Below are positions 4,224 through 31,923 of a DNA stretch of 35,492 nucleotides, piece by piece. The notes below the pieces were generated by a model. The model ran no database searches. It had not been told where the DNA came from and was given only the letters and a program-made list of their open reading frames with translations. The stretch comes from Xanthobacteraceae bacterium. Lineage in GTDB: Bacteria > Pseudomonadota > Alphaproteobacteria > Rhizobiales > Xanthobacteraceae. The translations under genes were made by a program, and so were the position numbers. How positions within the stretch are numbered: position 1 is the first letter of the stretch; each line of letters starts with the position of its first letter. The stretch lies in the NCBI GenBank assembly GCA_019747015.1, contig JAIERI010000144.1, positions 1 through 35,492 on the forward strand, written 5' to 3'.

Positions 4224-5138
4224 ATGGATATAAAGCAGATGCAGTATTTCCTTTGCCTGGCCCAGGAAGGGAACGTGACCCGCGCCGCGCGCCGGCTCAA
4301 CATCGTGCAGCCCGCATTGAGCATGCAGATCGCCAAGCTCGAAACCTCGTTCGGCAAGAAACTGTTTTATCGCTCCGCTTACGGCGTGTCCCTGACAGCG
4401 GCAGGCGAGAAACTGGCGGAGCTCGCCAACGGACTCGTTCAAAACGCCGAGAGCGTCAAAGAAGAGATGGACCGTCTCGACGGCACCATTTCGGGCCGCG
4501 TCAGCATTGGAATGATCACATCCGCGGCACAAAGCACGCTCGCGGCCTCCACTGCCGAGGTCGCCGCCAAATATCCTGAAATCAGACTCTCGGTTTTCGA
4601 GGGTTATACCGAGACTCTCATGGAATGGGTTACTGCGGGGCAGATCGATATCGCGATCATCAACGTGCCGCCCACAAAGACATCCCTGTCCGTGCATCAT
4701 ATTGTCGATGAAGGAATGATGCTGGCCTGTGCGGCCGGGAGACCACGACCGAAGAGTCTGTCGTTCAGCAACCTGAACAACATGGATCTTGTCATTCCCT
4801 CCCGTCGGCATGGACTGCGCGGAATTCTGGACACGGTGGCCGCAGAAGCAAATATCAGTCTCAAACCGCGGCTTGAAATCGATACCCTGTCGGCGATCTG
4901 CGAAGTCGTGGCGACAACCGAGCTTGTGACGATCCTGCCCGGCATCGCGCTGCATCCGGCGCTCTCGGCCGGAACCATACAGGCGCATCGTTTGCGCAAG
5001 CCTTCGATCACCCGCTCGGTCGCGTGGATCACTCACCCGCGCCGTGTCGTATCGACGGCCATGGCGGCGGTCATGGAGATTATCGCGCACGATCTCAAGT
5101 CGGCCGCCGCGTCCGCAGCCCGGCACGTCAGCAGATAA
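4224..5138 (+). CDS. LysR family transcriptional regulator
   Basis: MDIKQMQYFLCLAQEGNVTRAARRLNIVQPALSMQIAKLETSFGKKLFYR is a classic LysR HTH; the ORF is open from 4167 but ATG 4224 fits the family start. Confidence 0.93.
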   Translation: MDIKQMQYFLCLAQEGNVTRAARRLNIVQPALSMQIAKLETSFGKKLFYRSAYGVSLTAAGEKLAELANGLVQNAESVKEEMDRLDGTISGRVSIGMITSAAQSTLAASTAEVAAKYPEIRLSVFEGYTETLMEWVTAGQIDIAIINVPPTKTSLSVHHIVDEGMMLACAAGRPRPKSLSFSNLNNMDLVIPSRRHGLRGILDTVAAEANISLKPRLEIDTLSAICEVVATTELVTILPGIALHPALSAGTIQAHRLRKPSITRSVAWITHPRRVVSTAMAAVMEIIAHDLKSAAASAARHVSR

Positions 5139-5162
5139 ACCGGCGCTGCTTTTCCAATAGTT

Positions 5163-6137
5163 TCAGGACGGCGGAGCAATCGCCGAAGGTGCAGTCAAAG
5201 TCTTTCTCCGCTCAAATATTTCCTTGGGACCGAGACCATATACGGAGCGGAGAATGGCGGCGGCCTCGTTATCGAGCATCGCGATCTCCAGATATTCCTG
5301 GCTCACCGTCCGCCAGATCGGATGGCTGCTGTCAACGAACAGCAGGGCCCGCGCCACCGAATCGGGATCGGTTGCGGAGTGGCGCGAAGACAATGCGTCG
5401 ATGGTTTCCCTGCTCAGCTCGGCGGTGTATTTCCGCAGAATGGATGCAAGCTCCCAATATGTCCGCTCCTGGTTTGCCGGCGAAGACAAATTGCTCGCGT
5501 GCAAACGATATTTGATAAACGGCGCATGCGAGATCGAGATTCGAAATCCAGCCAGAACCGCACGAATCCAGAGTTCATAATCCTGCAATTGAAACAAGGA
5601 ATCCAGGTGAAGCCCGACCTTGTCAACCACGGCGCGCCGCATCATGATGGATGGGGCACTTATGAAATTGCCAAGGAACAGCAGACGCCTCAAAACGTTT
5701 GGATTGCTCATATCATCCAGCGGCGCAAACACCGGCGACATCTGCTCGTTTACGACGGAATTCCCTTCACCGTCGATGAAGACGGGCACACTGCTAACGA
5801 TGTCTGCCTGCGTGTTCTGAAGATAGGCAAGACGCCTGGATATTCCCTGCGGCAATGAAATGTCGTCGCCGGACATGATGGCGATATATTCGCCAGTGCT
5901 GTGATTGATCCCGTGATTGAGCGCGGTGCTCGGCCCGCCATTTTGTTTGAATAGGACTCTTACGGAAGCATTGTTCAGGGTGCCAAGCTTGTCCCGCGTA
6001 TCATCCGTGGATCCGTCGTCCACGACCACCACCTCGCTGTTTTCCGGCAATCCATCCAACACACTCGCAATCGACTGAAGGATGTATTGCGAGTAGTTGT
6101 ATGTGATGAGAACGACGCTGATCGAGGCGGACTTCAT
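5163..6137 (-). CDS. Family 2 glycosyltransferase
   Basis: GT-A fold: ISVVLITYNYSQYILQSIASVL...VVVDDGSTDDT...LFKQNGGPSTALNHGI...GEYIAIMSGDD. Confidence 0.9.
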   Translation of the reverse strand: MKSASISVVLITYNYSQYILQSIASVLDGLPENSEVVVVDDGSTDDTRDKLGTLNNASVRVLFKQNGGPSTALNHGINHSTGEYIAIMSGDDISLPQGISRRLAYLQNTQADIVSSVPVFIDGEGNSVVNEQMSPVFAPLDDMSNPNVLRRLLFLGNFISAPSIMMRRAVVDKVGLHLDSLFQLQDYELWIRAVLAGFRISISHAPFIKYRLHASNLSSPANQERTYWELASILRKYTAELSRETIDALSSRHSATDPDSVARALLFVDSSHPIWRTVSQEYLEIAMLDNEAAAILRSVYGLGPKEIFERRKTLTAPSAIAPPS

Positions 6138-11004: not shown

Positions 11005-11859
11005 TCACGTATCCAGAATCCGCACCTGATCTCCGGTCCGAACAAATTTGCCGGACTGATCGCCGAATGGCCTCGTGTTGATCGCCACCCTGTAGAAGTG
11101 GTTGAACCGGGAGCGATCGGACCATACCGGCAGGGTTCGGCCGCGAAGCTCGGTGAAGCGCCGCACGAATGTGCGATCCCCTATTCCCGAGGCCGGTTCT
11201 CTCGTCGGAACCACGCACCGCTGACACGGGTTGACGCCTTCGAACCCGGCTTCTCCGATACGAAAGCGAACCACCATCCCGGCGGCGCCGAAGAGCCGGT
11301 CCTCCCAAAAGGGCGGCACGCCATCGATCTCAATATTGGTGCGAAAGCGCTGGCGAACCTGCTCCAAGGGAAGATCGAACCACCGGGCGATCTCCTGAAG
11401 GGTCGCGACGCTGATGAGCGTCGGCCCTGGAGACGCCGTATCGTCGGGAAACCCGGCGTCGCGGTTACTTTTCAGCTCGACGGGAAATCCAAAATAACGG
11501 CTCAGCCATTGTTGGATTTCGTCCCGATCTGCGGTCAAGGAGAAGGTGCGATCGACAGGCCGCCGCTCGCCTTCGTCCTGAAACGACACTGTTTGGTTTT
11601 GCACGTCCACTGAAGATCGCAATCGGTGAACGGCCGCATGACGCTTGCCGTTGACGAATTGTCCACTCATCTCGAGCATTGCCCACGTTCTGTCGTATTC
11701 CAGCGCACCGCTTGTCAAAATCCGCGCCTCACGCAAGACAGCCGCATCCAGCGATTTGATCGGAAATATCTGGACGCGAGATACAAACGCCGTATCGACC
11801 ACTGTGCAGGCCCTCGGTTCATTTCCGGAAATGCCAAAGAATCTCCGATGACGCGCCAT
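11005..11859 (-). CDS. MOSC domain protein with MOSC N-terminal beta-barrel
   Basis: VQIFPIKSLDAAVLREARILTSGALEYDRTWAMLE (MOSC N-terminal barrel) and NPCQRCVVPTREP (putative Moco-ligand Cys motif). ATG 11859 has the SD-like GGAGA 7 nt upstream; the ORF extends to 11922. Confidence 0.85.
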   Translation of the reverse strand: MARHRRFFGISGNEPRACTVVDTAFVSRVQIFPIKSLDAAVLREARILTSGALEYDRTWAMLEMSGQFVNGKRHAAVHRLRSSVDVQNQTVSFQDEGERRPVDRTFSLTADRDEIQQWLSRYFGFPVELKSNRDAGFPDDTASPGPTLISVATLQEIARWFDLPLEQVRQRFRTNIEIDGVPPFWEDRLFGAAGMVVRFRIGEAGFEGVNPCQRCVVPTREPASGIGDRTFVRRFTELRGRTLPVWSDRSRFNHFYRVAINTRPFGDQSGKFVRTGDQVRILDT

Positions 11860-11895
11860 CGAAGATTCTCCGGGAGAGACATGCTGTAAATAGTC

Positions 11896-11917
11896 CGGGA
11901 GCCCGCAAAGGCTCCCG
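11896..11917 (-). terminator. Hairpin between APC permease gene and second MOSC gene; terminator or attenuator candidate
   Basis: CGGGAGCC-cgcaaa-GGCTCCCG, perfect 8-bp stem, no strong U-tract. Confidence 0.4.
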
Positions 11918-11932
11918 AACATTGTTGGAAAT

Positions 11933-13339
11933 TCAGGCCACCCGTTGTGCCGCAGGCAGGATGCTGCCGACGTGTTCCTTGATCATCGCTGCCGTCAGCG
12001 GTTTGCGGAACCTGACAGACAGGATCCAGACCGCCCCGATCGCTAGGTAAGCCAGGAACAGATAGGGGAAGTAAAGCACCGGGGCATCTGGGATCGGATA
12101 GACGCTGCCGACCGTCGGGATCATCAGAAGCGCCAGTGCTACCCCGCAGACGGCAAGATCGACGTTGCGAAGTTCGCCGATCTTTTTCAGATAGACCGGC
12201 GCCGCTATCGTAATCATGATGTAGGGAACGATGAAGCCGAAAGCCGCCAGCGTTCCAACATAGTTGAAGAGATCAAGCGGTTCGAGGCCGGCCACAGCCA
12301 CGCTGACTGTCGGGATGATGAACGCAATCGCCGCGAGGGTCGTCACGGCAACATGCGGGGTCGCGTTGGTTTCATGCGAGTCGGCGGTCGCTGCATGGAA
12401 AAGACCGTGCCGGCCCATGGCGAATAGCACCCGGCTTCCCGCGTTGATGCAGGAGAGGCAAAGCGCGAAGAAGCTGACCATGGCTCCGAACGACAGCGGC
12501 GCCTGAAGAATGGGAAGATGTGCGAGAGTGGCCATGACGTTGAGCGGCGCATCGATCTTGTCGAGAGTGGGATCGGAGCCGTGCGTCGCCATCACCATGA
12601 CGTAGGACACGAAAACGAAGAAGCTGCCGGAGATCACGAGACTCCAGACAACGGCTTTCGGAATCGTCACGAGCGGATCCCTCGCCTCTTCACCGAACGC
12701 CGTGCAGCACTCGAAACCGACGAGGCTGAAGATCGCGACGACGACGCCGAGACCAAGGCCCGACAGGGGCAATGTCGACACGTCGAATTGCGCATGATCG
12801 ATCTTGAAGCCATGCTGCGCCAGCGTCACGATACAGAGGATCGCGATCAACAGCATGGAGGCGCCTTCCAGGATCAGCATCAGAATTGCCGAGAGCTGGA
12901 CGTTTTTCCATGCGCAGAACCACGAGATGCCGACACAGACTGCGAAGAGAAGTGAGAACGGAAGATGGAATCCAACCATCTCGAGCAGCTTGTCGGCGAA
13001 AATCGAAAAGCCGGTGACGCCAGCCATCGAGATTCCGAGATAGGCCCAGATCAGGGACCAGCCGCCGATCGCACCGGCGGAAATTCCAAGACCGCGGCAG
13101 ATATACAGATACATCGATCCCGCGGTGGCCGAACGCCGCGCGAACTGATTGAGGTTGAAGGCGACGAAAACGAGCATGATCGTTCCGAGCGCATAGGATA
13201 ACCAGCTCCAGTCGCCGGTGTTTCCATACATGACCGGAATGATCAGCGCCGCCGTCATGGTCGGCGAGATAAGAGCAATGCCCTGAGCGAGCAGCTCCAC
13301 GAATCCTAGACAATTTTTTCTCAGTGTTACGTCGTACAT
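11933..13339 (-). CDS. APC superfamily amino acid/amine permease
   Basis: About 12 hydrophobic segments; FSLVGFECCTAFGEEARDPLVTIPKAVVWSLVISG is the APC consensus. ATG 13339 is preceded by AAGGGGAAGATCC; the ORF extends to 13417. Confidence 0.9.
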   Translation of the reverse strand: MYDVTLRKNCLGFVELLAQGIALISPTMTAALIIPVMYGNTGDWSWLSYALGTIMLVFVAFNLNQFARRSATAGSMYLYICRGLGISAGAIGGWSLIWAYLGISMAGVTGFSIFADKLLEMVGFHLPFSLLFAVCVGISWFCAWKNVQLSAILMLILEGASMLLIAILCIVTLAQHGFKIDHAQFDVSTLPLSGLGLGVVVAIFSLVGFECCTAFGEEARDPLVTIPKAVVWSLVISGSFFVFVSYVMVMATHGSDPTLDKIDAPLNVMATLAHLPILQAPLSFGAMVSFFALCLSCINAGSRVLFAMGRHGLFHAATADSHETNATPHVAVTTLAAIAFIIPTVSVAVAGLEPLDLFNYVGTLAAFGFIVPYIMITIAAPVYLKKIGELRNVDLAVCGVALALLMIPTVGSVYPIPDAPVLYFPYLFLAYLAIGAVWILSVRFRKPLTAAMIKEHVGSILPAAQRVA

Positions 13340-13437
13340 GGATCTTCCCCTTTTTGCGCAAGACTCTGTCTGTTGATCCTTGAGTGTTCCAATCCCGGCT
13401 TTTGATGATTGCATCACGCGGAAGGGGAATGAGCGGC

Positions 13438-13466
13438 CTCCAGTTTAGACGTACCTGCTGGTCCAG
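13438..13466 (-). promoter_or_regulatory. Candidate MocR operator upstream of APC permease
   Basis: Minus strand CTGGACCA-N15-CTGGAG; same octamer and 23-nt spacing as at 15477-15507. Confidence 0.55.
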
Positions 13467-13571
13467 TTGAATTGCCGCAGGCACGTGTGGCCCGCAAAAG
13501 ATTAAGCGGCAACGTGCCGGCGATGGCTGTCGCCGGGCATTTCAAGACTTCAAGCCGGCGGCAGTTCACTC

Positions 13572-14387
13572 TCAGAAATTGAGTGCGATTTCGAGAGGAC
13601 TGCCCGCGCGCAGCGTCTTTCCGATACCGCCGGCCACCGCGGCATAATTGCCGAAGCGGACACCGACTTTCGAATTTCTGTATCGGCCCAGGGTCAATAG
13701 CGGCTCCTGTCCGAACTCCGCTTTTTCCTGATCGATGGTGGTCAGATTGCATCGGTAGCAAATGTCGATGAAACGAAGCGTGACGTCGCTCGTACTTGCC
13801 GATGCAAAGTAATCTTCGCCGTAAGGATCGACACCCTCGACGACGATATTGGGACGAAAGCGATTCATCGGGACTTCGGAAACGAGGCGCTTGTTCAGAT
13901 CGTTACGCGAAGCCTCGGAGATCACCAGGATTCCGTAATTGTCGACGAAACTGGTGGGAGCCTCATCGCGCGAGGGATACTGCACGCCGCCCTTGCGCAG
14001 GAATTGAGGATCGCAGGCCACAAGGCGATAATTGCCGCCCAGATATTTGCTGAACCATGATGACGCCTCGCTGCCTGCCGAAAGCGACGACACTTTTTCA
14101 CCGAACAATTCGGCTTCGGTGCGGTCCCCGCCTTGAATCGCGTGCGGAATGACAAGCTCCGGCATGCCCGGCGCATTGAGGAGGATCTTGTCCTTGAGAG
14201 GCTTGGGCTCGACGAGCGCAAGTTTGGGCTGTTCGCGCTGGCTCACGAACACACCGTGCTCGTCAATGACCATCCAGTTCCGGTCGCCAAGAAATCCTGT
14301 CGGCGACAGCTCGATTTCCTCCACGCGGACACCTTTGCAGGACTTGACCGGATAGACATACAGATCCTTGATCTTGATCATGACCAC
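13572..14387 (-). CDS. MOSC domain protein, mARC/YcbX-like without the C-terminal 2Fe-2S domain
   Basis: IKDLYVYPVKSCKGVRVEEIELSPTGFLGDRNWMVID (barrel) and NRFRPNIVVEG...IDICYRCNLTTIDQEKAEFGQEPLLTLGRYR, which aligns by eye to the RC-x-TT-D/S...EPL-TL motif of mARC/YcbX. Confidence 0.88.
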   Translation of the reverse strand: MVMIKIKDLYVYPVKSCKGVRVEEIELSPTGFLGDRNWMVIDEHGVFVSQREQPKLALVEPKPLKDKILLNAPGMPELVIPHAIQGGDRTEAELFGEKVSSLSAGSEASSWFSKYLGGNYRLVACDPQFLRKGGVQYPSRDEAPTSFVDNYGILVISEASRNDLNKRLVSEVPMNRFRPNIVVEGVDPYGEDYFASASTSDVTLRFIDICYRCNLTTIDQEKAEFGQEPLLTLGRYRNSKVGVRFGNYAAVAGGIGKTLRAGSPLEIALNF

Positions 14388-15442
14388 ACCTCTCTTGTGT
14401 TGAGCTGAGAATCCGCCGCGGGTCTCGACGGATGAAAACAGTCGGAGAAAAAACGATCGCGACGGGCGCCCCGCGCGAGCACGGCCTTATGTGCGGCATC
14501 GACCATCGCCGGACTGCCGCAGGCATAAATGTCGAAGGCGGACAGGTCATCGAAATCCTGCAACACCGCCTCGTGGACCAGTCCGGCACGGCCGCTCCAT
14601 GCGTCGGCGCGGTCGGAGACGACGGGGATATATGCGATGCCATGCCGTTCGCTGAATTCGCGCAGTTCGCGATCGAGATAGAGACCGCTTTGCGTGCGGC
14701 TTCCCCAATACACGTAAACAGGCGCGGCAAAAGAGTCGCCCGCCAGCGATTCGAGGATCGCGCGCACCGGCGCAATGCCCGTGCCCCCCGCAATGAAAAT
14801 CGCCGGCCGGACAACGGAGGCACAGGTGAAATTGCCGAACGGCCCGGTGACACGCAGGATGTCATTTACCCTGAGATGTTCGAAGACGTGGCCGGTGAAT
14901 ACGCCTCCGGCAACACGGCCGACGTGCAGGTCAACTGTCCCATCCACGCGTGGCGCATTGGCAATGGAAAACGAGCGGTCGAAGCCGTCGGAGTGACGAA
15001 GCCCGATAAACTGGCCGGGAATGAAATCGAGCGGATCGAGCGCGGAAAAGCGCAACGTCAATCGCATCACGTGCTCGCTCTCGCGGATCAGCCCGACCAC
15101 GCGCGCGGGCACGGCCGGACGCTCGCTCGGGGGCGGTTCGGGAAGCTCAGCGACATCAAGCTGAAGATCGCCCAATGCATGGGCGCGGCAAAGAAGAGCC
15201 GTGCAACCGTCCTGCTCCGCCGCGGATAATGCCGCTACCGAGCCGGCATGAAAGAAGTCACCGCTGGAAACCGTCACCTTGCAACTGCCACACGCACCTG
15301 TGCGGCACGCACTCGGAAGCCAGATACCGGCTTTGCCCGCCGCCTCCAGGATCGTTTCGTCAGACGCAACCTCGAAAGCGGTTCCCGTGGCGAGTGTCAC
15401 CGTCGCGGAACTGATCGGACGCAAGGAAAGCTTCAGGCCCAT
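14378..15442 (-). CDS. 2Fe-2S ferredoxin / FAD-NAD(P)H oxidoreductase fusion
   Basis: CRTGACGSCKVTV...LLCRA (plant-type 2Fe-2S), FIPGQFIGLRHSDGFDRSFSIANAP (FAD), FIAGGTGIAPVRAILE (NAD(P)H); overlaps the MOSC gene by 10 nt. Confidence 0.93.
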   Translation of the reverse strand: MGLKLSLRPISSATVTLATGTAFEVASDETILEAAGKAGIWLPSACRTGACGSCKVTVSSGDFFHAGSVAALSAAEQDGCTALLCRAHALGDLQLDVAELPEPPPSERPAVPARVVGLIRESEHVMRLTLRFSALDPLDFIPGQFIGLRHSDGFDRSFSIANAPRVDGTVDLHVGRVAGGVFTGHVFEHLRVNDILRVTGPFGNFTCASVVRPAIFIAGGTGIAPVRAILESLAGDSFAAPVYVYWGSRTQSGLYLDRELREFSERHGIAYIPVVSDRADAWSGRAGLVHEAVLQDFDDLSAFDIYACGSPAMVDAAHKAVLARGARRDRFFSDCFHPSRPAADSQLNTREVWS

Positions 15443-15476
15443 GCCATCAAATTATTGGGCCGATGAACCGGGCTCA

Positions 15477-15507
15477 TGATCCAGTTTTTGGATCGAATAT
15501 GGTCCAG
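15477..15507 (-). promoter_or_regulatory. Candidate MocR operator upstream of ferredoxin reductase-MOSC operon
   Basis: Minus strand direct repeat CTGGACCA-N15-CTGGATCA, about 35 nt upstream of the start codon. Confidence 0.6.
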
Positions 15508-15550
15508 GCAAACTTTATGCGGTCGGGTGTCTTCTAGCGCTCCGTGGGGA

Positions 15551-17029
15551 CTAACCGCCGATGGCGGCTTTCATGCGCCGCACGGCCTCCCGGATGCCCT
15601 GATCGTCCAGCCCGGCGAAACCCATTCTGATCCCTCGCCTGCCGTCTTCCTTTCCGGAAAAGCTGCGGCTGGGGAGAAACGAGAGGCCGAATGCCACGGC
15701 ATTTTTCTCAAGCCGGTCCAGATAGGCTTGCGTTTCGAATGTCAGCCAGAACGCCAGCCCGCCATCGGGCATCCGGAAATCGACGACGTCACCCAGTTCC
15801 GCGCGCAATGTGACGGCGAGCTTCTCGCGGCGGCTGGAATAGACGCGCAAGGCGCGGTTGGCATGTCTGCGCACTTCACCGGCATCGACCAGTTCGGCAA
15901 CCGCCTCTTCGGTGATCTGATCGCCCTGACGGTCGATCAGCAGAATCTCCTGCGCGGCCCGGTCGATGAATTTCTCCGGCGCTGATATGTAACCTATCCT
16001 CAGGCTTGGAGACAGAAGCTTGGACATCGACCCGATATAGAGGATGGCCGGATCGAAAGACGCCAGGGGAAGCAGTGGCTGATGCGCAAAGTGAAATTCA
16101 TGGTCGTAGTCGTCCTCGATGATCGTAAAGCCGAATTGCGATGAAAGCGCGAGAAGCCGGAGCCTTCGCGCCGGGTTGAGCAGCACGGTCGTCGGAAAGT
16201 GATGATGAGGCGTCAGATAGACGACACGTACGCGGTTTCGGCGGCACAGCTTTTCAAGGTTGTCGATATCGGTTCCGCCCTCGTCGACCTTCGCGCGAAG
16301 AATGGTGGCGCCGGCAGCACGAAAAGCCTCCCGCGCCGGCGGATAGGTGAGATCGTCGACGACGACGGCATCGCCGGTCCGGATCAGGATTCTGGATGCG
16401 AGGTAGATCGCCATCTGGCTTCCGCGCGTCAGACAAACCCTCTCCGGCGTGGTCGCCAATCCGCGGTCCATATTCAGCATGCGCGATATCGCGGTCCGCA
16501 GCACCGGGGATCCGCGAGGATCACCATAGCCGAGTTTGCCCACCTTCCCCGCGAGCGACATCGCGCTGCGATAGGCCCGCGCAAAACTCTCGGCCGGAAA
16601 CAGCCGGGTGTCGGGAGTGCCGTCATCGAGCAGAACGATACCGGGCTTTGGAAAGATGACCGGCACATCGAGCGCCGCAGCAAGGCGGCTGAACTGAGGC
16701 CCTTCGCCGCGCGTCTTCGAGTTATCGAGGACGGCCCGGTTGGGCTTGCTGCGCGACTCCGGCAGCTTGGTCGAAACGAATGTCCCCTTGGTGCCGCGCG
16801 AAACCAGCCAGCCTTGTGCGATCAACTCGTCGTAAGCCACGATGACCGTTTTGCGGTTCACGCCCAGCTCTTCGGCCATCTCCCGGGATCCGGGCAGCAC
16901 CTCGCCGGGAGTGAGCCGGCCCCGCCGGATTTCAGCAATGAGGCCGTGCGCGATCTGGACGTAGACAGGGCCGGCGCCGTCTCCGCGCTTCAGACCCAGC
17001 TTGAGATGTAACTTCCATTCCCGCAGCAT
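15551..17029 (-). CDS. MocR/PdxR-type GntR regulator with aminotransferase-like domain
   Basis: N-terminal wHTH (YVQIAHGLIAEIRRGRLTPGEVLPGSREMAEELGVNRKTVIVAYDELIAQGWL) plus fold-type I aminotransferase region (YIGSMSKLLSPSLRIGYI). Confidence 0.94.
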   Translation of the reverse strand: MLREWKLHLKLGLKRGDGAGPVYVQIAHGLIAEIRRGRLTPGEVLPGSREMAEELGVNRKTVIVAYDELIAQGWLVSRGTKGTFVSTKLPESRSKPNRAVLDNSKTRGEGPQFSRLAAALDVPVIFPKPGIVLLDDGTPDTRLFPAESFARAYRSAMSLAGKVGKLGYGDPRGSPVLRTAISRMLNMDRGLATTPERVCLTRGSQMAIYLASRILIRTGDAVVVDDLTYPPAREAFRAAGATILRAKVDEGGTDIDNLEKLCRRNRVRVVYLTPHHHFPTTVLLNPARRLRLLALSSQFGFTIIEDDYDHEFHFAHQPLLPLASFDPAILYIGSMSKLLSPSLRIGYISAPEKFIDRAAQEILLIDRQGDQITEEAVAELVDAGEVRRHANRALRVYSSRREKLAVTLRAELGDVVDFRMPDGGLAFWLTFETQAYLDRLEKNAVAFGLSFLPSRSFSGKEDGRRGIRMGFAGLDDQGIREAVRRMKAAIGG

Positions 17030-17060
17030 GGCCGGACAACTCAGTGGCCCATACCATAGG

Positions 17061-17087
17061 CTAGATTAGTCACACCCAATGGTCCAG
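17061..17087 (-). promoter_or_regulatory. Candidate MocR autoregulatory site
   Basis: Minus strand CTGGACCA with a degenerate CTAG half-site at the same 23-nt spacing; an additional TGGACCA lies at 17107-17113 (+). Confidence 0.5.
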
Positions 17088-17164
17088 AACTTTCCCTCTG
17101 CCTGTTTGGACCAAACCCGGCTTGCGAGACGCAGGCCTGTTTAAAGGCAATGCCCATATCCTGA

Positions 17165-17386
17165 TTATTTTTTCTCTGCCGCCGACAGCACTTTTTTGCA
17201 ATCCGGCGTGAGCTTGTCGCCTGCGGCGGACAGGCAGGCGATAATTCTCCCGCCACCCGGCGTCACGCCCTGGCAATATTTTTGATAATCGCCCATGCAG
17301 GCCGCGCGCTGCTCGGCGGTCAGGTTCTGTGAAAACGCGGCTCCGGATGCACAAAGAAAAGCAGCGATCAAAACCGTACGTAGCAT
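17165..17386 (-). CDS. Small secreted cysteine-rich repeat protein
   Basis: MLRTVLIAAFLCASGAAFSQ signal peptide; mature part with spaced Cys: CMGDYQKYCQGVTPGGGRIIACLSAAGDKLTPDCKKVL. Confidence 0.75.
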   Translation of the reverse strand: MLRTVLIAAFLCASGAAFSQNLTAEQRAACMGDYQKYCQGVTPGGGRIIACLSAAGDKLTPDCKKVLSAAEKK

Positions 17387-22670: not shown

Positions 22671-23747
22671 TCAGTAGCCGGTCATTTCGAGATAGCCGAC
22701 GCCCGACTGACTTCCATGGATTCGTACTGGCCCTTCCCAATACGGGATCGTCGTCGCCATCCAGCTTTGCGGATTGAGCGAGACGATTTTTATTTTCAGG
22801 CCGCGCGATGGAATCTCGATGTCCCATTCCGTCGGGAGCATGCGCCCCTCGATCGAGTTTTGCGACGCCGGCGTCAAAGCGATCATGTTAGATGCAAGCA
22901 CTTCGGAGAGGCCATCCGCCCCGATCCAGTTGCCCGAGATAAAGTTTTTTCCATCGGACTGCCGCAGCCGGAACAACATCAGCTTCGTGCCCGAATCGAG
23001 ATGAAGTGAAATCCAGTCCCATCCCTTCTGGTCGGATGCCAGCGGCTGGCTGCTCCATTCACGATCCATCCACGCCTGACCTGTGACCTGAACGCGATGA
23101 CCGGATAACTCAATTTCACCACGAGCCTTGAAAAAGGGCTGGCTGTAATAATACGACGCCTGCCCCTTGTCCGACTTCTGGCTGTAGCCGGCATCCCCCT
23201 GCAAAACGAGAGCTTGCGATGCCTCCAGCTTCAGGTCGAAAGCAAAATCGTTCGCCGACGCAGTGAGCACCAGCGGCGAAATGGTCTGCGCAGACATCGC
23301 ATCAAGACCGCGCATGTCCCATGCATCGATCCACACATGAAACGGTTCGGCGTCGGCTCCGGCCTGACCGATGCCGCCTCGCGCCAATCGTTCACCAAAG
23401 TGATGCTCGCTTGCGCTGGTCACCGCGGCATGCCCCATCCAGATTTGCCGGCTGGCCCAGTTCTCGGCGTCCGGACCAGCTTCCATCGCCTGACGAAACA
23501 ACGTCCATTGCACGCCATACGGCGTGCCGGCCCCGTCGTGCAGATTGGCGGTGACGTACCACCACTCGATCCGGAATCGCGGATGCGGTCCGTGGTCGGC
23601 GGGAAATGTCAGCGCCCTGCCCTTCACCACCGGCTCGAACGCGCCAGCCTCGATGCCCAGTCCGGCGAACCCTTGAGCGAGCGAAGTCTTTGCATGGACC
23701 GCCGCGAGCAATACTCCCTGAACGAACGCCCGGCGGTTCGGAAGCAT
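22671..23747 (-). CDS. AttH/CrtC-like lipocalin-type protein
   Basis: Tat-like NRRAFVQG leader; FPADHGPHPRFRIEWWYVTANLHDGAGTPYGVQWTLFR and GQAWMDREWSSQPL are AttH/CrtC-family motifs; follows an ABC permease as in att-type operons. Confidence 0.85.
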   Translation of the reverse strand: MLPNRRAFVQGVLLAAVHAKTSLAQGFAGLGIEAGAFEPVVKGRALTFPADHGPHPRFRIEWWYVTANLHDGAGTPYGVQWTLFRQAMEAGPDAENWASRQIWMGHAAVTSASEHHFGERLARGGIGQAGADAEPFHVWIDAWDMRGLDAMSAQTISPLVLTASANDFAFDLKLEASQALVLQGDAGYSQKSDKGQASYYYSQPFFKARGEIELSGHRVQVTGQAWMDREWSSQPLASDQKGWDWISLHLDSGTKLMLFRLRQSDGKNFISGNWIGADGLSEVLASNMIALTPASQNSIEGRMLPTEWDIEIPSRGLKIKIVSLNPQSWMATTIPYWEGPVRIHGSQSGVGYLEMTGY

Positions 23748-23748
23748 C

Positions 23749-26229
23749 TCAGTGTTCCTCGGCGAAAATCTTGATCAGCCGCGAGGACGGCATGCGAAAC
23801 AGTTTCAGCACCGGAATCAATGTCGCAAGCAAGGCCGCCACCATCGACAGCCCGAGCAGTTCGAACAATTGCAACGGAAACACGTGCAGCGGCAGCCGCC
23901 AGCCAAAGGCGCGCACGTTAACCACCGCCAAAAGACACCAGCCCACAGCTAACCCCAAGGGAATCGCAAAAAGCGCCGTCATCAAGGCCATGGACATTGT
24001 CTTCACCAGTTCGACGAACGAAAGCCGCGGCAGCGTCAGTCCCATCGCCCAAAGCGGCGCAAGCCTCGGCAATCGCGCATTGCCGAGGGTCAGAAGATTG
24101 GTCAACAGCGCAATGGCTGCGACACCGAGCGTGAAGGCATTCAGCGCAGCAGTGACTGCGAAGGTGCGCTCGAAGATTCGTTTCGACTCGGTCTTGACCG
24201 TCGACTGATCCGCGATCTGCTGGTTGCCAAGGCTGAACCTGTCTTGCAGGGAAGCGATGAGCCCCGGAGCATCCGCGGGCGCCACCCGCAATCCGAGCCG
24301 CGTTTGCGGCGTTTGCGGAAATCTCTCGATGAGCGCGTCATAAGCCACCGCGATCTGGCCTTTCGGATTGCCGTAATCGGCGTACACCCCCACGATCTTC
24401 AAGGGCCAGTCGCCTTTTGGAGACGGCACATGCACCACATCGCCGAGCCTGATGCTGGATCGCCGCGAGAGCTGCTCGCTCACAAACGCCGCCCGGCCGG
24501 ATTGTATGCCGTCCCATGCGTGCGATGTTGCCTCAAGCAAAGGCCATTGATTGCGATAGGCGGCATGATCGGCGAGACCAAATAACTCCAGCGGCTCGGT
24601 GCCCAACGCCGACTGCGCGCGTGCCCCGGGCAAAATCGCGATGGTCTGCGGTTGCTGGCGCAGCCAGGCCTTGATGTCCGCCGCCTGGCTATCATTCGAT
24701 GCATCAAGATACACTTCCGCCGTCAGCCGTCTGTCCAGCCAGCTGGTAAATGTTTCGCGAAAGCTCCCGACCATGGTGGCGACGCCGACATTGACCGCGA
24801 TCGCGAGCAACAGCGCCATCAAGGCCAGCGACAACCCCGAGAGTTGCTGGCGGCTGTCGGCCCAGAACCATTTCACGAGCGGCCGCCCGGGAAGGGAATG
24901 CCCTGCCCATCGCTCGCCGAGCACAAGCAAGATGCTCAGCAGTCCCGGCAGTCCGAGCGCGGCACTAGCCAGCAAGCCAGCGAGCACGGCAAAGCCGGCA
25001 CCGAGAGACGTGCCGAGCCATAGCGCGCACAGCGCTGCGATAAATATCGTGCCGGCGATCACGCTTTGTCTTTTCAGCCACGTTTGCTGAACCTGTTTCC
25101 AGGCCTCCGGCTGGGCGGTGGCGAGGATCGGCAGCCGATTGAGCTTGAGAAAACTTTGCAACGCGGCCGCCACCGTGCCCGCGATGCTCATCGCCAAACC
25201 TGCGACCCACCATTCAGGCCGCAAGGTGAGTTGCCCGGGAATCTCGGCGCCATACAGTCCCCGCAAACTTGCTGCGACATCGGGAAGTAACGCGGCGGCG
25301 ACAAGGTAGCCACTGAGCAAGCCGATAAGACCAGCGCCGAGCGCCAGTGACACAAGCTCCACCAGCAATGTGACATTCAAGGAAAAAAGCGAGATGCCGC
25401 ATGCCCGCATGGTCCGAAACATCGGAAGACGTTGTTCGAACGTCAGGCCGATGGCGGAGTTGACGATAAAGATACCGACGGCGAAGGCGAGAAATCCGAA
25501 TGCCGTCAGATTCAAATGAAAACTGTCGGTGAGATGTTCGAGGCCGCTTTCCGCATCCGGCGCGACCAGCTGCAATTGATCGCCAACAATCGTTTCAAGC
25601 GGGCGCACCGGTCCAACCGGTTTCGGCGCGACAAGCAGGCGCGACACCCCGTCCGGCAATTCCAGCACGCGCTGGGCGACACCGATATCAACCACCAATA
25701 CACCGGGTGCCAGTGCGGGATTGAGCGCGAGCGGCGGGAGTGTCTTTCCATCCTTAAGCTGCGGCCGGTCGCCAGCCTTCAGACCAAGTTCGTGCAACGT
25801 GTCGAACGAGACAAGCGTCCGGTAAGGCGGCAGGAGAAAAGCCTGGAGATCTTTCGAACTCATTTCGGAGGCCGGGCCGGCCTCCTTCGGCATGGTGATT
25901 GGCTCGATTCCGATCAGCCTTAATGGACGCGAACCGACCTCGATGCGGCTTTCCAACACGGGCGAAACGGCCCAGCCGTGACGCCGCAAATCGACAAACA
26001 ACTTTTGGGAGAATGTCGGACCATGGCTTCCAACAAGAGTGGGGATGCGCGCGCCGCCGAATATCGCCGCGGCACGGTCATAACTGGCGCGGGCCTGCGC
26101 GTTCAACGCCTGCACGCCGCTCCACAATGCTGTCGCGCAGATCAGGCCGATCAGGAGCATGGCAAGTTGCATGGGATGCCAGCGCCAATGGCTGAGCAGT
26201 ATCTTGAACGTCCACGCGAAGCGGCTCAT
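23749..26229 (-). CDS. ABC transporter permease, FtsX/LolCE-like (MacB-type)
   Basis: 826 aa, multiple FtsX-like TM blocks; translationally coupled (ATGA overlap) to the LolD-like ATPase. Confidence 0.9.
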   Translation of the reverse strand: MSRFAWTFKILLSHWRWHPMQLAMLLIGLICATALWSGVQALNAQARASYDRAAAIFGGARIPTLVGSHGPTFSQKLFVDLRRHGWAVSPVLESRIEVGSRPLRLIGIEPITMPKEAGPASEMSSKDLQAFLLPPYRTLVSFDTLHELGLKAGDRPQLKDGKTLPPLALNPALAPGVLVVDIGVAQRVLELPDGVSRLLVAPKPVGPVRPLETIVGDQLQLVAPDAESGLEHLTDSFHLNLTAFGFLAFAVGIFIVNSAIGLTFEQRLPMFRTMRACGISLFSLNVTLLVELVSLALGAGLIGLLSGYLVAAALLPDVAASLRGLYGAEIPGQLTLRPEWWVAGLAMSIAGTVAAALQSFLKLNRLPILATAQPEAWKQVQQTWLKRQSVIAGTIFIAALCALWLGTSLGAGFAVLAGLLASAALGLPGLLSILLVLGERWAGHSLPGRPLVKWFWADSRQQLSGLSLALMALLLAIAVNVGVATMVGSFRETFTSWLDRRLTAEVYLDASNDSQAADIKAWLRQQPQTIAILPGARAQSALGTEPLELFGLADHAAYRNQWPLLEATSHAWDGIQSGRAAFVSEQLSRRSSIRLGDVVHVPSPKGDWPLKIVGVYADYGNPKGQIAVAYDALIERFPQTPQTRLGLRVAPADAPGLIASLQDRFSLGNQQIADQSTVKTESKRIFERTFAVTAALNAFTLGVAAIALLTNLLTLGNARLPRLAPLWAMGLTLPRLSFVELVKTMSMALMTALFAIPLGLAVGWCLLAVVNVRAFGWRLPLHVFPLQLFELLGLSMVAALLATLIPVLKLFRMPSSRLIKIFAEEH

Positions 26230-26888
26230 GTCAAAAACCCGCCACTCAAATGCAGGCGCCGGTCCATCGCTTGCGCCAGCCGTGTGCTGTGGGTTGCCAT
26301 CAGCAGACTGCAGCCGGTGTGCCGGACCAGATCGAGCATAAGCCGGAACACGTTATCTCCGGTCGTCTCGTCGAGATTTCCGGTCGGCTCGTCGGCAAGG
26401 AGCAGCTTGGGCCTGACCGCCAGAGCCCTGCCGATCGCAACACGCTGTTGCTGGCCGCCGGAGAGTTGCTCCGGATAGCGTCGCAACAAGTCTTCAAGAC
26501 CAAGCCGGGTGGCGAGTTCGTTCTGCCATGCCGTATCGAAACGAGCCGCAATCCGGGCCTGAAAGCTGAGATTGTCAGCCACGTTCAGGCTTGGGATCAG
26601 ATTGAACTGCTGGAATATGAGGCCGATACTTTCTCGCCTTATGTCGGCAAGCTGACTGTCGCTCATCGCGCTGAGAAGGGTGTTCTCCAGCCAGATCTCG
26701 CCGCCGTCCACGCGGTCCAGACCGGCGATCAAGTGAAGCAAGGTGCTTTTGCCGCTCCCTGACTCGCCGGTGAGCGCCACGCTCTCGCCGGATGGGATGG
26801 AAAGATCGATGCCGCGCAGAACGCTGACAGTCTCGTCAGCGGTGCGATAAGTTTTCCTGAGATCTTTAGCTCTTAAAACTACCGCCAT
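26226..26888 (-). CDS. ABC transporter ATP-binding protein, LolD/MacB type
   Basis: Walker A TGESGSGKST, signature LSGGQQQRVAIGRAL, Walker B LLLADEPTGNLDE. Confidence 0.95.
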   Translation of the reverse strand: MAVVLRAKDLRKTYRTADETVSVLRGIDLSIPSGESVALTGESGSGKSTLLHLIAGLDRVDGGEIWLENTLLSAMSDSQLADIRRESIGLIFQQFNLIPSLNVADNLSFQARIAARFDTAWQNELATRLGLEDLLRRYPEQLSGGQQQRVAIGRALAVRPKLLLADEPTGNLDETTGDNVFRLMLDLVRHTGCSLLMATHSTRLAQAMDRRLHLSGGFLT

Positions 26889-30557: not shown

Positions 30558-30878
30558 CTACACGCGGATAAACCACGCTCCGTTTTCCTGTCGTAATTCA
30601 AAAACCGCGAGGGGTTCTTCGGCAATTCCGATCGCTTCTCCGGTGTTGATATCCCACTGCCAAAAATGCAAAGGGCATGTCAGAACATCTCCTTCGAGCA
30701 TTCCTTCCGCTAACGGCGTATCCTGATGTGGACAATCTGCACAGCACGCATGCATGCCGCTTTGCGTTCGGATGAGCAGGACCAGCTTTCCATCCGGCAG
30801 CGTAACTTCCTTTTTGTCGCCTATCTCAAGATCGTCGAAAGTGCCGAGCGAGTGCCACGTATCAGCCAAAACGGTCAT
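30558..30878 (-). CDS. Rieske [2Fe-2S] ferredoxin (TmoC/NDO-ferredoxin-like)
   Basis: CPHQDTPLAEGMLEGDVLTCPLHFWQWDINTGEA; start trimmed to MTVLADTWHSL at 30878. Confidence 0.9.
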   Translation of the reverse strand: MTVLADTWHSLGTFDDLEIGDKKEVTLPDGKLVLLIRTQSGMHACCADCPHQDTPLAEGMLEGDVLTCPLHFWQWDINTGEAIGIAEEPLAVFELRQENGAWFIRV

Positions 30879-31923
30879 ATCGAATCTCCGTTGTGCGGAC
30901 TTTGCATTCGGCAATAAGCATACGCATGGTCGCATCGACCATCGCTGGAGGGCCGCCTGCGAAAAACAGCGGATTATCCAGATTCATGAAGGCCGGCCCC
31001 CCGCCTTCCTTCAAAGCTGCGCCGGCAACATCGTGGATAAAGCCATCAGCAAATTGGATTGATGAAAAGCGTTCGCTAAATACAGCAGGACACGCCATAT
31101 CCGAGAAGGCGACCGTCACTTTCAGCTTCCCGTTTGTCCGATCCACCATTGATGCCAGTTCGTCGAGGAGATAGCTGCTCTCGGCGTCGCGTAAGCCGAA
31201 GAACACATGTGATCGATGCCGTTCGAAATGCCCGTTCTCCAAAGCATGATCCAGAATCGAGAGCATGCCGGCGATACCCGAACCGCCAGCGATTGCGACG
31301 AAGGGCCGGTTCTCGCCGCTCAAGAACGTCGCCCGGCCCAGCGGCCCGAAAACGGTCACATCCTTGGTCACCGAAGGATCATCAAAAAGCGCCTTGGTGA
31401 AAGCACCGCCGTGGCTTTTGCGAATGAGAAAATGCAATTCCGCCTGTTGGGATTTGTGCCGGATCATCGAGTAAGCCCGAGGCCCGTCAACTCCCAATCC
31501 GCCGAGCAAGACAAATTGGCCCGGCTGGTAAGATATCGGATTTTTCAACTCCACCACGAAGGTCGAAATTTCCGAGGTCAATCTGCGATCGAGCGATATT
31601 TTGCCCGACATCGCTTTGCACTGAGGATCGCATGGCGCCGTGAAAGCGGATCGCAAAGTCAGTTCGAGAGAACTTTTCGCGACCGCCTGGCACAACAATA
31701 CCTCATTGGCATTGCGAAGAACCTTTTTGCCGGGTGCTTCCGGCCACAAAACTCTGACGTCGCCATTGACGATCGTCGCCTTGCAATTGCCGCAAGAGCC
31801 CGTCGCACACTCATAAGGAAGGCCCAATCCGGCCGCCAATCCAGCTTGCAATAATCGCTGGCCCGGGGCCGGCTCGAAAGATCGTTGCACGTTGTTCTTG
31901 TCAGATATCTTGACGGCGATCAT
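30862..31923 (-). CDS. Oxygenase-type electron transfer reductase (2Fe-2S ferredoxin + FAD/NAD(P)H domains)
   Basis: CATGSCGNCKATI, YQPGQFVLLGG...RAYSMIRH, FVAIAGGSGIAGMLSIL. Confidence 0.92.
   Translation of the reverse strand: MIAVKISDKNNVQRSFEPAPGQRLLQAGLAAGLGLPYECATGSCGNCKATIVNGDVRVLWPEAPGKKVLRNANEVLLCQAVAKSSLELTLRSAFTAPCDPQCKAMSGKISLDRRLTSEISTFVVELKNPISYQPGQFVLLGGLGVDGPRAYSMIRHKSQQAELHFLIRKSHGGAFTKALFDDPSVTKDVTVFGPLGRATFLSGENRPFVAIAGGSGIAGMLSILDHALENGHFERHRSHVFFGLRDAESSYLLDELASMVDRTNGKLKVTVAFSDMACPAVFSERFSSIQFADGFIHDVAGAALKEGGGPAFMNLDNPLFFAGGPPAMVDATMRMLIAECKVRTTEIRYDRFG

Follow-up and report, generated by a model that had tools for sequence, protein, structure and literature searches.

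A candidate MocR-controlled MOSC reductase with a linked 2Fe-2S/FAD electron donor in a Xanthobacteraceae genome

Genes of the locus and their conserved core

The DNA analysed here, referred to as the window, is a stretch of 35,492 nucleotides from a Xanthobacteraceae bacterium (contig JAIERI010000144.1 of assembly GCA_019747015.1), in which an earlier reading, made from the sequence alone, had pointed to five neighbouring minus-strand genes as a possible new system. Open reading frames and Pfam searches confirmed the coordinates and families given in that sequence-only reading: a MocR-type regulator, a ferredoxin-FAD reductase (FNR), a permease of the APC superfamily and two MOSC proteins, MOSC1 and MOSC2 (Table 1). 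The FNR and MOSC1 genes overlap by ATGA, the stop codon TGA of the former occupying 14380-14378 and the likely ATG of the latter lying at 14381. Likely starts of APC (ATG 13339) and MOSC2 (GTG 11799, giving 264 amino acids) were placed where their homologues begin, and the AA_permease domain of APC takes up most of the protein (residues 71-432).

Table 1. Genes, candidate operators and RNA hairpin of the locus (positions in the window; for the reading of the shuffle counts, which are optimistic, see text)
Feature	Position	Strand	Description
MocR-type regulator	15551..17029	-	Pfam GntR winged helix-turn-helix and aminotransferase I/II; 492 amino acids
FNR	14378..15442	-	Pfam Fer2, FAD_binding_6 and NAD_binding_1; plant-type 2Fe-2S, FAD and NAD(P)H reductase; 354 amino acids
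MOSC1	13572..14387	-	Pfam MOSC_N and MOSC; mARC/YcbX-like
APC-superfamily amino acid permease	11933..13417	-	Pfam AA_permease
MOSC2	11005..11922	-	Pfam MOSC_N and MOSC; CQRC motif
Candidate MocR operator before MocR	17056..17087	-	CTGGACCAT-N14-CTAGCCTAT; 0/2000 shuffles
Candidate MocR operator before FNR	15476..15507	-	CTGGACCAT-N14-CTGGATCAT; 0/2000 dinucleotide shuffles
Candidate MocR operator before APC, weaker	13435..13466	-	CTGGACCAG-N14-CTGGAGGCC; reached by 47/2000 shuffles
RNA hairpin between APC and MOSC2	11893..11920	-	12-pair stem; -23 kcal/mol; z -4.5

The conserved core of the locus consists of three genes, encoding MocR, FNR and MOSC1. In all five distinct loci (the window, Bradyrhizobium BTAi1, the Xanthobacteraceae metagenome-assembled genome JOPF206, and the family genomes G272 and G279) MOSC1 stands behind FNR and MocR adjoins them, being colinear in two loci and divergent in three. 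It is chiefly this persistence of the trio, despite changed gene orientation and flanks, that marks it as a unit, and since the core recurs in other genomes, the gene set is not a matter of chance. The main refutation named by the sequence-only reading, a neighbourhood not conserved in related genomes, was not borne out, as the core was present in every genome found to carry the MOSC1 clade.

Close relatives of MOSC1 were those of BTAi1 (70%) and JOPF206 (57%); among the 399 family genomes searched, relatives at 54-58% were present in G272, G279 and G288, the last apparently representing the JOPF206 locus again. The clade occurs in 4/399 family genomes, a rarity that is an estimate, the genome searches being a sample. 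In the phylum sample, matches to MOSC1 reached at most 40%, and the 29 loci examined there with 1.5 kb flanks showed no adjacent FNR beyond YcbX-type Fer2 tails; the class sample gave no match at 1e-50. The window genome assembly is 85.5% complete and 3.3% contaminated, and a chimeric assembly is argued against by a remnant of the locus in G022, a genome of the same genus.

MOSC1 and its predicted electron donor

The MOSC_N and MOSC domains of MOSC1 scored 110 and 60 bits, and human mARC1 was its best solved relative (E 3e-31, 146 MOSC-domain residues aligned). The mARC/YcbX motif noted earlier is indeed present as CYRCNLTTID...EPLLTL, of which CYRCNLTTID aligns with CSRCILTTVD of mARC1; Cys208 and Cys211 of the CxRC motif are invariant across the four aligned proteins. 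As the MOSC cysteine of mARC1 is Cys273 (PMC10637980), we infer from the aligned motif that Cys211 would be its counterpart. The reported absence of the YcbX C-terminal 2Fe-2S domain also stood, no Fer2 being found by Pfam in MOSC1, which has 269 amino acids from its likely ATG versus 369 in E. coli YcbX. In the MOSC tree the MOSC1 proteins form one clade (support 98/100) outside that of E. coli YcbX; one row, G022_MOSC2, which had been translated out of frame and stood far from the MOSC1 clade on a long branch, was left out of this reading. MOSC1 is thus not YcbX in the strict sense, having no Fer2 domain and lying outside the E. coli YcbX clade, nor is it YiiM, defined by MOSC and YiiM 3-alpha domains without MOSC_N (Pfam). 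MoaA and MoeA genes, for synthesis of the molybdenum cofactor, are present in the window genome. Four-row alignments gave AlphaFold models of low quality (mean pLDDT 48 for MOSC1 and 40 for MOSC2), which were not used.

Electrons reach mARC and YcbX through a flavoprotein plus b5 or 2Fe-2S chains (PMC10637980). The domains of FNR and its ATGA overlap with MOSC1 agree with the proposal that the adjacent gene supplies a 2Fe-2S and FAD/NAD(P)H module. The cluster ligands of FNR are Cys46, 51, 54 and 85 (C-x4-C-x2-C...C), RSFS and GGTGIAP motifs are present, and its matches in the PDB are P450 and dioxygenase reductases. E. coli YcbX shares with MOSC1 the MOSC_N and MOSC domains and the CxRC motif and, as is predicted of MOSC1, works with a flavoprotein donor, CysJ in its case (PMC10637980). 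Its 2Fe-2S domain, however, is part of YcbX itself, at the C-terminus, and its donor is a shared one, whereas here a separate, linked FNR would provide both 2Fe-2S and FAD; MocR control and a separate clade further distinguish the MOSC1 locus. The eukaryotic system of mARC, cytochrome b5 and NADH-b5 reductase is similar in combining a carrier-less MOSC protein with a separate NADH flavoprotein chain, and differs in that a single FNR chain with 2Fe-2S, encoded in a bacterial operon, would stand in place of b5 and its reductase.

Natural fusions of MOSC to FAD, NAD and 2Fe-2S modules, of which two cases appeared in our comparison (the JOPF206 locus and Methylobacterium), support a transfer of electrons from FNR to MOSC1. 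Such fusions, of which YiiM-like Q89NR8 and Vibrionales YcbX are published examples (PMC10637980), contain the same functional modules; unlike the split arrangement described here, where Fer2 comes first in FNR, they form one chain, with Fer2 last in those seen. The fusion of the JOPF206 locus (L006, 7536-9230), YiiM-type and 564 amino acids long, directly follows the APC gene. That of Methylobacterium indicum (L065, 6043-7878), 611 amino acids with a MOSC2-type head, lies on a conjugative plasmid, is annotated merely as a 2Fe-2S protein and adjoins genes for Rieske, ATP-grasp and iron redox enzymes.

The window genome also contains a second, unrelated MOSC and reductase operon of the same logic, built from different families (L034 on contig C140, 3463-8146). 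It comprises, in order, an XRE-cupin regulator, RidA, a small MOSC protein (4537-5061), a FAD/NAD/2Fe-2S reductase (5058-6002), an MFS transporter and DJ-1/PfpI, the small MOSC and reductase genes again overlapping by ATGA.

Candidate operator, regulator and peripheral genes

Three copies of the 8-mer CTGGACCA are present in the window, each on the minus strand: one before MocR, one before FNR and one before APC. The general form of the candidate operator is a direct repeat, CTGGACCAT-N14-CTGGACCAT, located before FNR in four loci and weaker in the fifth, JOPF206, where it overlaps the MocR start; an extra box, TTTGGTCCA, lies at 17114 by the copy before MocR. When spacings of 14-35 were compared, the summed repeat score was highest at 23. 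The repeats before FNR have a period of 24 in BTAi1 and of 23 in G272 and G279, and none was matched in 2000 dinucleotide shuffles, counts that are optimistic because the consensus was derived from the sites and then tested. Repeats that played no part in that derivation were found by MocR homologues of Caballeronia (45%) and Acinetobacter (39%), with the form CTGGACC...CTGGAT and a period of 23 (8/500 and 1/500 shuffles). There, the repeat lies between the MocR homologue and a divergent operon with DHDPS/aldolase-type genes (L120, 4647-4985, and L125, 3800-4000), so that it is to be seen as the operator of a group of MocR regulators with varying targets. No such repeat was found for the MocR homologues of Novosphingobium, Ciceribacter and Rhizobium. 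A genome-wide operator scan gave five hits elsewhere in the window's own genome, which, in the loci inspected, apparently fell inside open reading frames and yielded no further regulon member.

The MocR control proposed in the sequence-only reading is thus supported by a conserved candidate operator. Operators made of direct or inverted repeats at regulated promoters are a trait of the MocR subfamily, seen here as sequence conservation; its architecture, a GntR-type domain joined to an aminotransferase domain, is present as well, with a probable pyridoxal phosphate (PLP) lysine, Lys337, in GSMSKLL. The best PDB matches were GabR structures, and the NCBIfam PdxR model was barely passed (328.7 bits, cut-off 320), no pdx gene being seen in the locus. 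Orthologues of MocR are present at four other MOSC1 loci. According to the main text of a survey of MocR regulons, the TauR operator consists of direct repeats of CTGGACYTAA (PMC5320631), to which the present repeat is close; regulators of the TauR/PdxR/GabR kind also share the architecture and PLP lysine, but a MOSC N-reductase pair, the apparent target here, does not come up in the main-text passages of that survey covered here (PMC5320631). In Bacteroidota, a Hymenobacter volaticus plasmid (L124, 3977-6235) carries a YiiM-type MOSC gene directly after that of a MocR homologue (45%).

A separate problem is the place of the two remaining genes. An APC orthologue (67-68%) was found only at the JOPF206/G288 locus, the gene thus occurring in 2/329 genomes including the window's own, and homologues with identities of about 40% or below did not point consistently to any substrate. 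Among the 329 family genomes searched, MOSC2 was found at 1e-40 only in the window genome (G000) and in G022. The decayed locus of the latter (L033, 8898-10201) comprises 3' fragments of FNR and APC, in that order, and then an intact MOSC2 (58%), from which it follows that FNR-APC-MOSC2 is an old gene order in the genus and that MOSC2 can outlast FNR and MOSC1. The five-gene unit first envisaged therefore shrinks to the three-gene core: APC is optional, and MOSC2, which stands alone in G022, is probably peripheral, being genus-restricted, devoid of the operator and downstream of a strong hairpin that is likely a terminator or attenuator.

Proposed function and competing explanations

We propose, with a probability of about two in three, that the locus encodes an inducible, MocR-regulated N-oxygen reductase dependent on the molybdenum cofactor, with FNR as its dedicated donor. 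MOSC1 would bind the cofactor through Cys211 and take the oxygen off an N-hydroxylated amino compound, such as a hydroxamate, N-hydroxy-amide, hydroxylamine or oxime. Family knowledge suggests that electrons would pass from NAD(P)H to FAD and 2Fe-2S in FNR, then to molybdenum in MOSC1 and to the N-oxygenated substrate. MocR, whose aminotransferase-like domain would hold PLP, would bind two CTGGACCAT boxes arranged head to tail at a distance of 23 bp and, in response to a presumed inducer, switch FNR-MOSC1, itself and, in some strains, APC. The permease probably imports the substrate or its parent amine, and MOSC2 and, in one relative, the YiiM-type MOSC-reductase fusion may act as accessory N-reductases. 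According to a review, every MOSC protein assayed in vitro shows N-reduction, and the range accepted by mARC enzymes fits hydroxamates, N-hydroxy-amides or ureas, hydroxylamines and oximes (PMC10637980). A literature search for a canavanine/hydroxyguanidine link found no MOSC connection.

Several observations weigh against this proposal. APC is not beside MOSC1 in BTAi1, G272 and G279, and import is accordingly not a fixed part of the system; G022 retains MOSC2 without intact FNR or MOSC1; and the MocR tree places the copy of JOPF206 with Novosphingobium. As homologues of MocR control other operons elsewhere, the regulator gives no firm clue to the substrate, and to these points the optimism of the shuffle counts has to be added.

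In G272 and G279, formamidase FmdA and FmdB genes lie tail to tail with MOSC1-FNR (L032, 1000-7831; L116, 750-2628), preceded in G279 by a urea-type ABC transporter (UrtA, UrtD), and the Caballeronia MocR homologue adjoins amidase genes. The FmdA/FmdB and amidase context, a possible hint at hydroxamates, N-hydroxy amides or ureas such as N-hydroxyurea, was not counted as evidence, G272 and G279 being close relatives and the operons convergent.

A farther-reaching and rather doubtful version would make the locus a dedicated system to sense and salvage a natural N-oxygenated amino compound. MocR would recognise this compound, perhaps through a reaction of PLP with the aminooxy or hydroxylamine group of the latter, APC would import it and FNR/MOSC1 would reduce it to a usable amine or amide. 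If true, this version would give a mARC-type enzyme a physiological role with a defined inducer. It is unlikely that the locus serves instead to detoxify PLP-trapping compounds (hydroxylamine, canaline, aminooxy compounds), MOSC1/FNR reducing oximes and hydroxylamines and MocR sensing oximes on its own PLP. Oximes and hydroxylamines are reduced by mARC (PMC10637980), the PdxR model is the nearest to MocR, which retains the PLP lysine, and RidA, a guard of PLP enzymes, is encoded in the second MOSC operon of the window genome; however, the locus is without a pdx or PLP gene, and the literature searched gave no case of a MocR that senses oximes.

The similarity of MOSC1 to mARC/YcbX, together with the resistance to N-hydroxylated bases conferred by YcbX and YiiM in E. 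coli (PMC10637980), could also mean that MOSC1 is the YcbX of this lineage, its reductase split off, with a housekeeping task against bases such as 6-hydroxylaminopurine. This is very unlikely for a rare and patchy protein with a dedicated regulator and sometimes a permease, in a genome with other MOSC proteins and in a clade apart from E. coli YcbX. Least credible of all, to the point of being highly improbable, is that FNR serves another oxidoreductase, as its likeness to oxygenase and P450 reductases might suggest, and lies beside MOSC1, a carrier or sulfurase-like protein, for unrelated reasons: the locus contains no oxygenase, and the 5/5 linkage of FNR and MOSC1, their ATGA overlap in the window and the natural MOSC-reductase fusions all speak against it.

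MOSC enzymes, MOSC-reductase fusions and MocR regulons are already known, and it is the arrangement of these parts that is new. No split, operon-encoded reductase combining MocR control with a conserved operator turned up in the open-licence PMC literature searched, which is weak evidence of absence. Debate continues over the physiological substrates of mARC/YcbX enzymes (PMC10637980). Where a MOSC enzyme comes with a donor and an inducer-sensing regulator of its own, the question becomes testable, as the inducer of MocR should point to the substrate. MOSC1 and FNR are also predicted to form a simple, probably soluble, two-protein N-reductase driven by NAD(P)H, for use in biochemistry and biocatalysis.

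Elsewhere in the window, a further Fer2-FAD-NAD reductase is encoded at 30862-31923, near genes for GST, a TauE-type exporter, a zinc-binding dehydrogenase, an amidohydrolase and TctAB, with no oxygenase seen among them. Three adjacent minus-strand genes at 22671-26888 encode a CrtC-like lipocalin protein, a FtsX/MacB-type permease and an ABC ATPase. Upstream of MocR, at 17165-17386 on the minus strand, lies a gene for a small, secreted-looking, cysteine-containing protein of about 73 amino acids.

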